The notes under the pieces are model-generated. The model did not search any database and was not told the origin of the DNA. It saw nothing but the letters and a program-made list of their open reading frames with translations. Shown one piece after another: positions 252-53,612 of a stretch of 64,000 bases of DNA. This DNA comes from Oscillospiraceae bacterium. Its GTDB lineage: Bacteria; Bacillota; Clostridia; Oscillospirales; Ruminococcaceae. The stretch lies in contig JAITFZ010000015.1 of the NCBI GenBank assembly GCA_031280965.1, positions 1 through 64,000 of the forward strand, written 5' to 3'. How positions within the stretch are numbered: position 1 is the stretch's first letter; each line of letters starts with the position of its first letter. A program made the translations under genes and the position numbers.

Positions 252-339
252 CTTTTTTATTTTATACATCGCTTCGTCCGCCATACAGATAATTTCATCA
301 ACGCGCTTCGCGGTATCGCGAATGATAGCTATGCCGATT
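252..339 (-). pseudogene. Remnant of a GGDEF-domain gene
   Basis: These 88 bp are almost identical (about two mismatches) to 5111-5198, the part of the diguanylate cyclase gene that encodes residues around IGIAIIRDTAKRVDEIIG and on to MYKIKK. Here the fragment has no start codon, lies out of frame with the lipoprotein gene whose stop codon it abuts, and stops short of the last codons of the intact gene. It is a duplicated scrap. Its position at the downstream end of the lipoprotein array, while the intact copy lies at the upstream end, suggests that recombination or duplication shaped this locus. Confidence 0.75.
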
Positions 340-1075
340 AGTTTTCGCTTTGTCTAATAATATCAATTTCGGCTTGCACATCGACTAATTCAATCGTTTC
401 TATCGTCCTTAAGGCAAGGTTTCTTAAAAACTCGTAAGTGTTCAATTCGCCAGGAACCTTTACACTAAACCATGTATTTCCTATCTTTGAAAACACATCA
501 TTTTTGCTTTCAACATAAATTATATCTTCCTTGCTCAAATATGATATACCACTTTGATTTAATTGCTCTGTAATTGATTTTAACGGGTCAAAAGCGTCAA
601 CATATTCTGGTCTGCGTATTAAAATTTCAATCCCAGAGTTATAACAGAAAAAATAATCTCCATTTTTATCTAAGTTCTCTTTATTAGGATTTAATGGCGC
701 ATAATAAAAAACTAATGAAATACTCGTTACTTCCACACAAAATAATTCATATCCGTCAATTTTCAATAATGGGAAGTAAAAATCTTTTATATCTGCAAGA
801 TTATTTCGAGTAAATATTGAATATTCGTAGCTACCCTCATCAGCTGTTCTATATTTGTTAATTCGATTGACTAATTCTTCTTTATAACCGTTTTCATTAA
901 TATTCCTAATAACTAAGGATTGGTACTCAAACTCAACTTCGATTTTTTCATCCTCATGTAATTGCATGATATTTCCATTATTTACTTCCGGGTTACGCGA
1001 TTTACAGCCGCAGAGAAATGTAAATAATACTGTCATAACGATAATTACAGGAAAAACGTTTTTTTTATTTTTCAT
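338..1075 (-). CDS. Array lipoprotein 5 (paralogous family)
   Basis: A 245-residue predicted lipoprotein: basic N-terminus, hydrophobic segment, lipobox LCGC. The mature part is mixed alpha/beta with no domain I recognise. It is homologous along its length to the four genes upstream, but only the signal peptide and the C-terminal block (LALRTIETIELVDVQAEID) are near-identical; the middle is strongly divergent. I start at the ATG of MKNKK (1075) because the top gene of the array, with a clear GGAGG, starts at the equivalent Met. An in-frame ATG at 1087 lies directly against the GGGAG and would be too close to it. Eight bases separate this gene (from 1087) from the stop of the next one upstream. 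Its own stop codon overlaps the GGDEF remnant. Confidence 0.75.
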   Translation of the reverse strand: MKNKKNVFPVIIVMTVLFTFLCGCKSRNPEVNNGNIMQLHEDEKIEVEFEYQSLVIRNINENGYKEELVNRINKYRTADEGSYEYSIFTRNNLADIKDFYFPLLKIDGYELFCVEVTSISLVFYYAPLNPNKENLDKNGDYFFCYNSGIEILIRRPEYVDAFDPLKSITEQLNQSGISYLSKEDIIYVESKNDVFSKIGNTWFSVKVPGELNTYEFLRNLALRTIETIELVDVQAEIDIIRQSEN

Positions 1076-1095
1076 TGGAAAGTTCATCTCCCAAC

Positions 1096-1836
1096 TTAGT
1101 TTTCGCTTTGTCTAATAATATCAATTTCGGCTTGCACATCGACTAATTCAATCGTTTCTATCGTCCTTAAGGCAAGGTTTCTTAAAAACTCGTAATTTCC
1201 TAATTCTCTCGGCACATCAATGTGAATAGACGTTTCACCAATTTTTGCGGTGATGTTGCCGAACTCTGCATCGTACAACATATCATCTTCAGTCAAATGT
1301 CCCCAACCTTGCGCCTGCGCTTGCTTCACTTCGTCATTAAAGTGGTCAAGAACATTTCGAGCTGCATACCACTCATTTCGTCTTAGCGATATTATTATAA
1401 GTCCTTCTGAACCAATCAAAACTTCAAAATCGTCATCAATTTCAAATGGGGCATACATAAATCTAAATGTAGTCTCTGTTACAAAAACGCTGTGTAGTTT
1501 AAATCCATCAATTTCAACAGTTGGAAAGAAAAACTCTGTTATTTCAGAAATTCTGTTCACGTCATAATTGTTTTCTTCTTGATATTCCCCAATATTTTCC
1601 GACCTTGAAGTGATGACTTTATCAATAATTTCTTTTTTAAAATCCCTGCCTTCAACATTACATATTATAGTTGGAGTAGGCAATCCTACAGATAACACTT
1701 CATTGTTATCTGTAGGATTCTCGAATACTTGAGTTTCATTATTCACTTCCGGATTACGCGATTTACAGCCGCAAAGCACTACAATTAATACCGTCATAAC
1801 GATAATTACAGGAAAAACGATTTTTTTATTTTTCAT
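1096..1836 (-). CDS. Array lipoprotein 4 (paralogous family)
   Basis: A 246-residue predicted lipoprotein (alternative upstream ATG at 1848). The signal peptide MKNKKIVFPVIIVMTVL with lipobox LCGC is almost the same as that of the gene at 338-1075, and the last 30 or so residues are also shared, so these two genes form the most similar pair at their ends. The middle contains a conserved family block, here EGRDFKKEIIDKV, followed by ISEITEFFFP, VEIDGF and MYAP, which recurs in recognisable form in every member. No catalytic motif is visible. Probably a surface-anchored protein exposed outside the membrane; role unknown. Confidence 0.75.
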   Translation of the reverse strand: MKNKKIVFPVIIVMTVLIVVLCGCKSRNPEVNNETQVFENPTDNNEVLSVGLPTPTIICNVEGRDFKKEIIDKVITSRSENIGEYQEENNYDVNRISEITEFFFPTVEIDGFKLHSVFVTETTFRFMYAPFEIDDDFEVLIGSEGLIIISLRRNEWYAARNVLDHFNDEVKQAQAQGWGHLTEDDMLYDAEFGNITAKIGETSIHIDVPRELGNYEFLRNLALRTIETIELVDVQAEIDIIRQSEN

Positions 1837-1856
1837 TGGAAAGTTCATCTCCCAAC

Positions 1857-2576
1857 TTAGTTTTCGCTTTGTCTAATAATATCAATCTCGGCTTGCACAT
1901 CGACCACCTCAGAGGTTTCAATTAGCCGAAAAGCAAGGTCGCGTAAAAATTCATAATTATTTAGATTATTAGGAACAGTTATTCTAAAAACCGTATCCCT
2001 AATCTGCCCCCAAATTTGATTGTTCCCATCATATACGAAGTTATCGTCTGTCAATTTGCTGTTGCCTTGAGCGATTTTATTCAAGTTAGTTGGAATTTTT
2101 GAGTCAGACCTTTCAATTACTATTTCGACACCATCTGTGTTGGAAAAGCTATATTCTTCTCGCTGTCTTAGCTTTTCAACTGGAGCATAGTAATAAATGA
2201 AACCGTATTCACTTATCGAAACGCAAAATAACTCAAAGTCTATAATTTTTATAGATAAATAAAATTCAGTTAAATTAGATATTCTATTTGATGGATAAAC
2301 ATTGTAAATATCGTTATTTTCATTTGGATTTTTCGCTATATTAATGTGTTCAATAATTTTTTCTTTGAAATCAGTGCCTTTCTCAATCCATATCGTTAAC
2401 GGTGCAGGGTCTCCTATTGGTACAGGGTCGTTATGTTCCTCGTATGTTTCTTCTTTTTCAGGGAGAAATGGAGTTGTGTTTTTGTCGTTGACTTTTGCAG
2501 ACTGACACCCACAGAAAAAAGCAAAGGATATTGCCATAAAGACAAAAGCAGAAAGAATACATTTTTTAATTTTCAT
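1857..2576 (-). CDS. Array lipoprotein 3 (paralogous family)
   Basis: A 239-residue predicted lipoprotein (upstream ATG at 2588 possible). The signal peptide MKIKKCILSAFVFMAISFA with lipobox FCGC is identical to that of the gene at 2597-3271, and both end LAFRLIETSEVVDVQAEID and on, so they are a second sub-pair in the array. The central region (after about residue 30) has an acidic Glu-rich linker and then the family core (DFKEKIIEHI, then ISNLTEFYLS, then FIYYYAPV). Spacing to the neighbours is 8 bp measured from the upstream ATG. Function unknown; the family appears to be local, and I do not recognise a named domain. Confidence 0.75.
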   Translation of the reverse strand: MKIKKCILSAFVFMAISFAFFCGCQSAKVNDKNTTPFLPEKEETYEEHNDPVPIGDPAPLTIWIEKGTDFKEKIIEHINIAKNPNENNDIYNVYPSNRISNLTEFYLSIKIIDFELFCVSISEYGFIYYYAPVEKLRQREEYSFSNTDGVEIVIERSDSKIPTNLNKIAQGNSKLTDDNFVYDGNNQIWGQIRDTVFRITVPNNLNNYEFLRDLAFRLIETSEVVDVQAEIDIIRQSEN

Positions 2577-2596
2577 TGGAAAGTCCATCTCCCAAC

Positions 2597-3271
2597 TTAG
2601 CTTTCGCTTTGTCTAATAATATCAATCTCGGCTTGCACATCGACCACCTCAGAGGTTTCAATTAGCCGAAAAGCAAGGTCGCGTAAAAATTCATAACTAT
2701 TAAATTTCTTGGGCACATCTATGCGAACTGTGGTATTTCCTATTTGAGCAACAATATTACTATACTCTTCAGCATACAACATGCCGTCCTCGGATAAATA
2801 TCCCCAACCTTCATTTTGCGCTTGTTTTGCTTCGGCTCGGAATTGGTCAAAACGCCTAATTGATATTTCGATAACATCTGCTATATCAAGAAGAATCGAA
2901 GTGTCATCACCTACAAATTCAAGTGGAACATATCTAAAAATAAAAACGCCATCAAATATTGCCACGCTGTATAATTCGTAACCTTCAAATTTAATAGTTG
3001 GATAATAAAACTCTGTTATTTCCGAGATTTTATTCGCTTTGTAACTTCCATCAGCTTGGTGTTGTTCTTCGTCCATTAATTGCGATATATTTATTTTGTT
3101 AATAATTGCTTTTCTAAAATCTCCATTTTCAACATCGCTTATTATTACCGGCATAAAAGAAGCTAATGGCAATATTTCTTCGCTTTCGTTAGGTTTAGAA
3201 CACCCACAGAAAAAAGCAAAGGATATTGCCATAAAGACAAAAGCAGAAAGAATACATTTTTTAATTTTCAT
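2597..3271 (-). CDS. Array lipoprotein 2 (paralogous family)
   Basis: A 224-residue predicted lipoprotein, the shortest member (upstream ATG at 3283 possible). Signal peptide and C-terminus are shared with the gene at 1857-2576, but its middle (GDFRKAIINKINIS, ISEITEFYYP, EGWGYLSEDGMLY) is closer to the gene at 1096-1836, which has EGRDFKKEIIDKV and GWGHLTEDDMLYD. Its ends and middle therefore have different closest relatives within the array, a mosaic pattern expected from recombination between tandem copies. Function unknown. Confidence 0.75.
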   Translation of the reverse strand: MKIKKCILSAFVFMAISFAFFCGCSKPNESEEILPLASFMPVIISDVENGDFRKAIINKINISQLMDEEQHQADGSYKANKISEITEFYYPTIKFEGYELYSVAIFDGVFIFRYVPLEFVGDDTSILLDIADVIEISIRRFDQFRAEAKQAQNEGWGYLSEDGMLYAEEYSNIVAQIGNTTVRIDVPKKFNSYEFLRDLAFRLIETSEVVDVQAEIDIIRQSES

Positions 3272-3291
3272 TGGAAAGTCCATCTCCCAAC

Positions 3292-4032
3292 TTAGTTTTC
3301 GCTTTGTCTAATAATATCAATTTCGGCTTGCACATCGACTAATTCAGCTGAAACTACCAATTGTGCGCCAATATCGCATAAAACATCAAAATCAACCGAT
3401 TTAGGCACTTTCATGGCAAACCACGTTTCACCTATCAATCCGCCTAATTCATTATATTCAAAGAGTTCGCTTCCTTCGACAAAGAATAAATTATTACCAA
3501 TTACTTGCCCGTCAAATATTTCAGCAAGCTGCTCAATTGTTACACGAGAAGGTATATCGCCATATCTGTTATCAAATCTTGTTATTTGTAACAGAATCGC
3601 CGAGCCGTTGCTAAAGCATAAGCTACTTCTGTCTGCGGTTGAATTTATCGGAGCATAATAGTAACAAATAGTATCGCCTAATATTAGTACTTTATATAAT
3701 TCGTATCCGTGAATCTCAAAATTATTAAGGCTATAAAATGCCTTTATATTCGAGATTCTAACCGCTTGATAACTATCATTATATTTATGTTCGTTTTCGC
3801 TTATAAGCTTTGATGTGTTTATTTCGTTAATTATTTCTCTCGTATAATTGGCATCTTTGACGTCTTCTATAACTATTGCCGTAAAAATATTGGGCATTTC
3901 CTGAGCTTCTGTTATTTCAACCTCATCAGGTTCGGATTCATTTAATTGTGCAGAGCATCCGTTGAATATTAAAATCACGGATAATAATATCGATATGACC
4001 AAAATCGCAGAAACAAAAGTTTTATTTTTCAT
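3292..4032 (-). CDS. Array lipoprotein 1 (paralogous family)
   Basis: The first array member in transcription order, 246 residues. It has its own signal peptide, MKNKTFVSAILVISILLSV, with lipobox FNGC, and a partly different C-terminal region, but ends with the same VDVQAEIDIIRQSEN as the other four. The start is well defined: GGAGG lies 7 bases before the ATG at 4032. It follows the metzincin gene by 28 bp on the same strand, so it is probably co-transcribed with it. The core again shows the DANYTREIINEINTS / ISNIKAFY / CYYYAPI pattern. Cell-surface anchored; role unknown. Confidence 0.78.
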   Translation of the reverse strand: MKNKTFVSAILVISILLSVILIFNGCSAQLNESEPDEVEITEAQEMPNIFTAIVIEDVKDANYTREIINEINTSKLISENEHKYNDSYQAVRISNIKAFYSLNNFEIHGYELYKVLILGDTICYYYAPINSTADRSSLCFSNGSAILLQITRFDNRYGDIPSRVTIEQLAEIFDGQVIGNNLFFVEGSELFEYNELGGLIGETWFAMKVPKSVDFDVLCDIGAQLVVSAELVDVQAEIDIIRQSEN

Positions 4033-8659: not shown

Positions 8660-8740
8660 ATTTTCATAAAGTCCTTTCTTCACTAATTAAGGAATGAAAG
8701 CAACATTTTCCCCGTTCCGGTTGTATTTTGTTTCAAACTT
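8660..8740 (-). repeat. Dispersed 5' leader element, copy E (before coaD)
   Basis: Minus-strand copy of an element found five times in this window. It opens with AAGTTTGAAACAAAATACAA, continues with GGAACGGGGAAAATG and ends GTGAAGAAAGGACTTTATG plus AAAAT, immediately before the coaD ATG. This copy is of the short type: it has ATTCC where copies B and D carry a 20-bp palindrome. The GAAAGGA near the end is the only Shine-Dalgarno for coaD. Confidence 0.85.
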
Positions 8741-8765
8741 ATGTCCTCCGGACATGAACGGGCGC

Positions 8766-13090: not shown

Positions 13091-13165
13091 TAAAACCAAA
13101 ACACGACCGAAACGGGAAAATGATATTTTTATTCCTCACTGATGAAGAAAGGACTTTATGAAAAT
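13091..13165 (+). repeat. Dispersed 5' leader element, copy A (before the LRR lipoprotein)
   Basis: Short-type copy: AACCAAAACACGACCGAAAC, then GGGAAAATGATATTTTTATT, CCTCACT and GATGAAGAAAGGACTTTATG plus AAAAT directly before the ATG. It begins within 10 bases of the stop codon of the esterase gene. Confidence 0.85.
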
Positions 13166-14071: not shown

Positions 14072-14173
14072 AAGTTTTAAACCAAAATACAACCGAAACG
14101 GGGAAAATGTTGTTTTCGCTTCGTTTTAAAACGAAGCTATCCTCTATCGGTGAAGAAAGCACTTTATGAAAAC
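14072..14173 (+). repeat. Dispersed 5' leader element, copy B (before lysA)
   Basis: Long-type copy: AAGTTTTAAACCAAAATACA, then ACCGAAACGGGGAAAATG, TTGTTTTC and the perfect 20-bp palindrome GCTTCGTTTTAAAACGAAGC, then GGTGAAGAAAGCACTTTATG plus AAAAC before the ATG. It has one change in the Shine-Dalgarno block (GAAAGC instead of GAAAGG). Confidence 0.85.
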
Positions 14174-42204: not shown

Positions 42205-42283
42205 AAGTTTGAAACAAAACACAACAGAAACGGGAAAATGTCGTTTTCATTCCTCGGCGGTGAAGAAAGGACTTTTTGAAAAC
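42205..42283 (+). repeat. Dispersed 5' leader element, copy C (before ppk1)
   Basis: Short-type copy: AAGTTTGAAACAAAACACAA, then CAGAAACGGGAAAATGTCG, TTTTCATTCCTCGG and CGGTGAAGAAAGGACTTTTT plus GAAAAC before the ATG. It begins immediately after the pyrG stop codon, so it lies between two same-strand genes. Confidence 0.85.
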
Positions 42284-53486: not shown

Positions 53487-53511
53487 AATTAAAATCAGGA
53501 GAGAAATATAT

Positions 53512-53612
53512 AAGTTTTGAAACAAATATGACTGAAACGGGGAAAACGTTGTTTTCGCTTCGTTTTAAAACGAAGCTATCCACTGTTGGTGAAGAAAGGA
53601 CTTTATGAAAAT
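53512..53612 (+). repeat. Dispersed 5' leader element, copy D (before gpmI)
   Basis: Long-type copy: AAGTTTTGAAACAAATATGA, then CTGAAACGGGGAAAACG, TTGTTTTC, the 20-bp palindrome GCTTCGTTTTAAAACGAAGC and GGTGAAGAAAGGACTTTATG plus AAAAT before the ATG. The palindrome and its flanks are the same as in copy B, 39 kb away. Confidence 0.85.

Follow-up and report, generated by a model that had tools for sequence, protein, structure and literature searches.

A short repeat that occurs five times in a 64,000-nt stretch of an Oscillospiraceae genome (the window), and more than 100 times in the genome as a whole, is probably a small, presumably non-autonomous, mobile element that inserts between the Shine–Dalgarno sequence (SD) and the ATG of a gene and supplies a new SD of its own. 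Comparison of the sequences directly establishes the position and orientation of the copies, the displaced SDs, the empty sites in relatives, the pattern of sequence loss and the tandem arrays.

Anatomy, classes and carriers of the repeat

The five window copies lie where an earlier note had reported them (Table 1); searching the window with a 21-mer, up to 3 mismatches allowed, returns exactly those five, compared with a mean of 0.01 and a maximum of 1 in 100 shuffles. Each abuts an ATG, and Pfam matches support unrelated downstream products (CTP_transf_like, coaD-type; LRR; Orn/DAP/Arg decarboxylase, lysA-type; polyphosphate kinase; iPGM). The copy at 13091 is shortened at its 5′ end, and those at 14072 and 53512 belong to a longer class with a 20-nt palindrome. 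Elsewhere in the window (338-4032, minus strand), five successive ORFs of 228-250 aa, separated by direct repeats at a spacing of 695-761, make up a tandem paralogue family.

Table 1. Copies of the repeat and displaced native SDs in the window.
Feature	Coordinates	Strand	Remarks
Full-length class A copy, coaD target	8660..8740	minus	ATG 8659-8657; profile match E 4e-21
Displaced native SD (GGAGG) of coaD	8745..8749	minus	4 nt upstream of the element's 5′ end; SD-like motifs enriched at full-length copies
Copy without first bases, LRR lipoprotein gene target	13091..13165	plus	ATG 13166; profile match from 13094 = model position 8
Full-length class B copy (with palindrome), lysA target	14072..14173	plus	ATG 14174; old SD upstream not clear
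Full-length class A copy, ppk1 target	42205..42283	plus	ATG 42284; 1 base past the stop of the upstream gene; old SD not clear
Displaced native SD (AGGAG) of gpmI	53497..53501	plus	element-free orthologues read AGGAG-spacer-ATG at the same place
Full-length class B copy, gpmI target	53512..53612	plus	ATG 53613; empty sites in 12 same-genus genomes, G613 and G612

Across the source genome (G000; 2,011,069 bases, 36 contigs, 98.79% complete), a 27-mer probe with up to 3 mismatches gave 111 matches (none in the reversed control) and a 21-mer with up to 2 mismatches gave 121; the upstream box as a probe added copies with a changed 3′ box. Drawing on 100 of the 111 27-mer matches and on matches from later scans, we extracted 121 copies from the source-genome loci, 23 of them inner array units and 98 others. 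The unit reads AAGTTTG...CGGGGAAAA...GAAGAAAGGACTTTATGAAAAT, followed by the ATG of an unrelated gene; full-length units mostly begin with AAGTTTG or AAGGTTG and end in GAAAAT or GAAAAC. Class A units are 80 nt long (alignment of 52 rows, 5 from relatives), and class B units, of ~101 nt, contain the 20-nt palindrome GCTTCGTTTTAAAACGAAGC (23 rows, 1 from a relative). Together the two alignments hold 69 of the 72 distinct full-length source-genome units and 6 from relatives, the omitted units being the double unit L057, L069:1705-1784 and L071:1707-1786. The 3′ ends are constant among copies and the 5′ starts variable.

Tandem arrays in the source genome have a period of 80 nt. Neighbouring full-length class A units are on average 95.7% identical (9 pairs), compared with 86.1% for other class A pairs (1212 pairs), so the arrays grow mainly locally.

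The repeat is thus short, multicopy and without coding capacity, as MITEs are. Terminal inverted repeats, however, were not found (the class A consensus ends reach a local score of 4.0, equalled in 888 of 1000 shuffles), and target site duplications at 35 full-length insertions do not exceed chance (2 nt, 8 against 6.7 expected; 3 nt, 2 against 1.4; 4-6 nt, none). Since neither MITE hallmark is present, we class the element with small non-autonomous mobile repeats rather than as a MITE. A second, unrelated repeat resembling GGTGCGCCGAGRGCRTCG..ACCCTACAAT was seen by eye just upstream of shortened copies at L056, L073 and, in part, L001 and L002; it is possibly a MITE that broke some copies of the element.

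Known carriers are the source genome, two Oscillospiraceae MAGs and one phage contig. The MAGs, Pal332_bin19 (G612) and Lab288P3bin172 (G613), came to light when one genome from each of 84,980 species (contigs of 3 kb and above, near-identical records aside) was scanned for an exact 25-mer, and they hold 79 and 156 pattern matches. The label Lab288 occurs in two papers on termite-gut MAGs; the Pal332 MAG would also come from a termite, and the source genome would be that of a termite symbiont. A profile search detected 179 copies at E < 0.001 in 400 kb of G613, where the arrays L107 and L117 mix two subfamilies within one run and some unit junctions keep ATG, the source-genome arrays having AAG. 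The same search of 420 kb of the same-genus genome G397 gave no copy at E < 0.001 and 4 weak matches up to E 1. Among other genomes, in partly overlapping samples, 1 of 246 had one two-mismatch match, a pattern scan of 393 gave 0 matches among the candidates scored (at most 11 per genome), and the exact two-box pattern occurred in 0 of 395.

One contig among 2.9 million viral contigs carries an intact 80-nt copy (L228:14278-14357), flanked by CCGTGGAGGTAAAC and ATGAGCAAC. This copy sits between GTGGAGGTAAAC and an ATG, the same placement as in the bacterial genomes, and its neighbours match major head, tail sheath, tape measure, head closure and anti-repressor families. It lies at the contig end, with the downstream gene running off the contig, and an empty counterpart of the site was not found in relatives. 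Searches of phage and plasmid records returned nothing, and three further scans of viral sequences, by pattern or by protein, brought up no contig other than this one.

Placement before start codons and the displaced Shine–Dalgarno sequence

An ORF start lies at the 3′ end of 92 of the 98 non-inner source-genome copies: 69 at +0, 12 at +3, 8 at an internal ATG of the element (−8) and 3 elsewhere within 12 bases, with 6 copies lacking one; these counts are approximate, since ORFs were called with a simple longest-ORF script. Reclassifying L080:3342 and L057:1635 by eye as inner units gives 91 of 96, and the five start-less copies that remain precede short or broken frames or non-coding sequence. 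The constant distance to the ATG claimed by the earlier note therefore holds in the window and only nearly so genome-wide. The genome-wide search proposed there, with random orientation and position in mind, did return many copies, but neither their orientation nor their position is random. The portable leader it considered is borne out, in that the repeat stands in a single orientation directly before the start codons of unrelated genes and carries an SD. Its argument that an inserted repeat would not keep its orientation and distance constant, on the other hand, is not supported: given more than 100 copies, tandem arrays, empty sites in relatives and an old SD upstream of most full-length copies, we regard the element as an inserted repeat with unusual placement.

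In G613, 57 of the 179 copies are inner units; of the 122 terminal ones, set against 441 ORFs in the same 400 kb, 107 end at an ORF start and 15 do not. The ORF called 90 nt downstream of the terminal copies is on the same strand in 103 cases, on the other strand in 12 and absent in 7. The 3′ junctions are looser than in the source genome, with 48 of 83 start-linked terminal copies at +0 and the others from −11 to +5. These looser junctions, the 15 start-less copies and the 12 opposite-strand cases count against the mobile-element reading.

Is the placement a matter of targeting or of survival? In 144 kb of the source genome, ATGAA occurs at 40 ORF starts, at 44 strictly intergenic sites and 551 times within ORFs; a random choice among the sites outside ORFs would put ~48% of copies at starts, which makes the observed 92 of 98 improbable (p about 1e-22). 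Untargeted insertion followed by a selective filter, in which only copies before starts survive or are favoured as good ribosome-binding sites or domesticated leaders, is in our judgement unlikely. Such a filter would remove in-gene insertions, for which there are 551 ATGAA sites within ORFs, and it accords with the retention of the 3′ SD box in copies that have lost everything else. However, starts hold 92 of 98 copies, even though ATGAA is as frequent at intergenic sites away from them (44, compared with 40 at starts), where insertion should be tolerated; moreover, the 3′ junction in the source genome falls at few discrete positions, mostly +0.

The bases around the junction are also skewed. 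Among the 69 copies at +0, A follows the ATG in 90% and A stands at the next position in 80%, compared with 67% and 42% at 43 background starts. Most genes of the −8 class begin with ATGAAA, like the internal ATGAAAA of the element (L164, L069, L086 and others), which suggests that the junction may form at a shared ATGAA through microhomology. We consider it likely, if not proven, that insertion is actively directed to start sites with ATGAA favoured, although selection after insertion is not cleanly separated from targeting.

What lies upstream of the copies bears on how they arrived. Within the 18 nt that precede the 5′ boundary, 37 of 52 full-length first units have an SD-like tetramer, against a background of 17.5% (2146 random stretches); among shortened first units it is present in only 6 of 35, which equals background. 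With a stricter motif list, 23 of 27 SD motifs end 3-6 nt before the element boundary. In G613, counting units that start outside model positions 4-11, the motif precedes 36 of 55 full-length and 3 of 15 shortened units (background 20.2%). We take the motif upstream of full-length copies as the gene's old SD, and the contrast between 37 of 52 and 6 of 35 then indicates that a full-length unit has the old SD on one side and the ATG on the other, and that 5′ loss came later, removing the old SD with it. No such tetramer precedes the other 15 of the 52, two of which are the window copies at 14072 and 42205, and these units count against the mobile-element reading.

If the element were copied in by target-primed reverse transcription that begins at the 3′ end, a constant 3′ end and variable 5′ losses would result, which matches the end pattern; the lack of target duplication fits as well. 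A retroelement of this kind would be expected to leave the native SD next to shortened copies as well, and they do not have it (6 of 35; 3 of 15 in G613), so that shortening looks like later deletion; we set this explanation aside as very improbable. Also against it, reverse transcriptase genes number one in G000, one in G612 and none in G613. The G000 gene fragment, at L127 (G000:C16 about 4300), adjoins repeats that by eye resemble template and variable regions, and thus looks like part of a diversity-generating retroelement.

The mobile-element reading also offers an account of what the element brings with it. Its AAAGGA lies 12 nt before the ATG of the gene, a distance that shrinks to 4 nt for genes that begin at the internal ATG. 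The new SD that the 3′ box GAAGAAAGGACTTTATGAAAAT brings is suitably spaced and probably the one used for translation. The native leader in the genus can itself resemble this box, as in GAGAAAGGACGCTTAAAATT-ATG at gpmI of G454. Because coaD and genes like it are as a rule essential, the rebuilt site, if it is the one in use, has to be functional. Among the 35 shortened first units of the source genome, 22 have lost the whole upstream box, and the 3′ SD box is retained in copies that lost the rest. Divergent G613 copies conserve two boxes, AAtCGGGGAAAACG and the SD box; as host genes can do without the first, we infer that AAtCGGGGAAAACG serves movement.

We envision that a full-length unit of 80 or ~101 nt lands in sense orientation between the native SD and the start codon, without visible target duplication. 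The 3′ box would replace the interrupted SD and keep the gene translatable, the element rebuilding what it breaks, so that landing does little harm. Later, the 5′ part may be deleted together with the old SD, the 3′ box being retained because the gene would by then depend on it, and local duplication would give rise to the tandem arrays.

Empty sites, RNA structure and the leader peptide

At gpmI, the source genome reads ATCAGGAGAGAAATATAT-[element]-ATG and the same-genus genome G509 reads TTCAGGAGAAAACATAT-ATG; the site is an empty SD-spacer-ATG in 14 of 14 genomes (12 same-genus, G613 and G612). The coaD site is likewise an empty SD-spacer-ATG in 12 of 12 same-genus genomes, and neither G612 nor G613 has an intact copy there. 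Both have core-like sequence before coaD, gagaaggacttattggaac-ATG and gggaaggaatattgaaaat-ATG, perhaps left over from an old copy or perhaps there by chance. At a third gene the source genome has GTCACAAAATAGAGGAATAAT-[element]-AATATG where G613 has GTCACAAGATAGAGGAATGTAAAATG, again an empty site of this form. Of 26 element-bearing genes comparable in the G613 stretches, 8 have the element or its core and 18 do not, with the reservation that some low-identity matches may be paralogues (one shared case is at 53%). The same comparison finds the element at 3 of 5 G612 loci, a biased set mostly chosen for carrying it, and at 0 of 6 in G397. Such presence and absence at orthologous sites is characteristic of small non-autonomous mobile repeats. 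As for the leader conservation at orthologous genes that the earlier note put up for checking, most orthologues lack the leader, which makes a fairly recent insertion a better fit than a conserved regulator.

The same note had raised a new cis-regulatory RNA. A regulatory RNA or translational control element common to a regulon would account for the two boxes, AAtCGGGGAAAACG and the SD box, kept across divergent G613 copies, but we judge it highly unlikely. Consensus folds, column covariation and Rfam at gathering scores gave nothing convincing for a structured RNA: the class A consensus folds at −1.74 kcal/mol with 0 of 11 pairs compensatory, the class B consensus at −12.4, mostly through its palindrome, with 0 of 23, and the window holds no Rfam match at gathering scores. 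The window targets are moreover unrelated, the upstream box is missing from those 22 of 35 shortened first units, and most orthologues have no copy at all.

The in-frame VKKGLYENM-like extension described earlier does exist as a reading frame, but a start with an open frame is present in only 54 of the 69 copies at +0 and no SD is visible by eye before the GTG; a peptide extension from the repeat's GTG is therefore not supported. A three-codon frame, ATG AAA ATA TGA, frequently overlaps the gene's ATG; we give it no weight, as A occupies base +4 even in copies whose internal ATG is broken.

Mobilisation and known systems

Movement of the element would call for a putative enzyme acting in trans. 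Searches for reverse transcriptase, Y1, IS110 and TnpB found none common to the three carriers G000, G612 and G613, a point against the mobile-element reading. Y1 transposase (PF01797), the enzyme of REP/RAYT and IS200/IS605 systems, has no match in any of them, nor has TnpB, and IS110 transposase is present once in G000 and absent from G612 and G613. A link to the G000 IS110 gene through weak profile matches near it was rejected (best E 0.0034).

BOX, RUP and SPRITE of pneumococcus are short non-coding repeats with many copies and a narrow host range, and are regarded as non-autonomous mobile parasites; they are reported to be overrepresented between convergent genes, and BOX and RUP have inverted repeats and target duplications (PMC3049150). 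The present element is like them in size, copy number and narrow range, but unlike BOX and RUP it has neither inverted repeats nor target duplication, and unlike all three it sits sense-oriented at start codons. REP elements are short intergenic repeats, sometimes clustered, moved by RAYT (Y1) transposases. The short intergenic form and the clusters recur here, but the three carriers have no Y1 match and class A units are not palindromic. HEARO-type elements insert beside a short target motif. So do IS200/IS605-type elements, without target duplication or terminal inverted repeats, and IStrons render insertion harmless by splicing (PMC4227781). HEARO, IS200/IS605 and IStron elements resemble our element in lacking target duplication and terminal inverted repeats and in the short motif, IStrons also in being harmless; the carriers nevertheless have no Y1 or TnpB match, the element bears no sign of a ribozyme, and harm would be avoided through its own SD. 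A literature search, with most subscription journals outside its coverage, returned no report of a repeat inserting between SD and start codon.

A further-reaching interpretation, which we put forward tentatively, is that the repeat represents a class of start-codon-homing mobile elements. Its members would recognise initiation sites through the SD and ATGAA sequence or through initiating mRNA, stay harmless by bringing their own ribosome-binding site, and depend on a putative mobilising enzyme; they would have replaced the ribosome-binding sites of roughly one gene in four in one relative, and would have reached a phage. If true, a selfish repeat would have found a way to settle in a gene-dense genome: it picks the single position in a gene where it can restore what it disrupts. 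Ribosome-binding sites would have been rewritten on a genome scale, as the terminal copies and ORFs counted in G613 illustrate, providing a natural experiment on SD strength and spacing. The finding would also point to a new insertion machinery that targets the start of translation.
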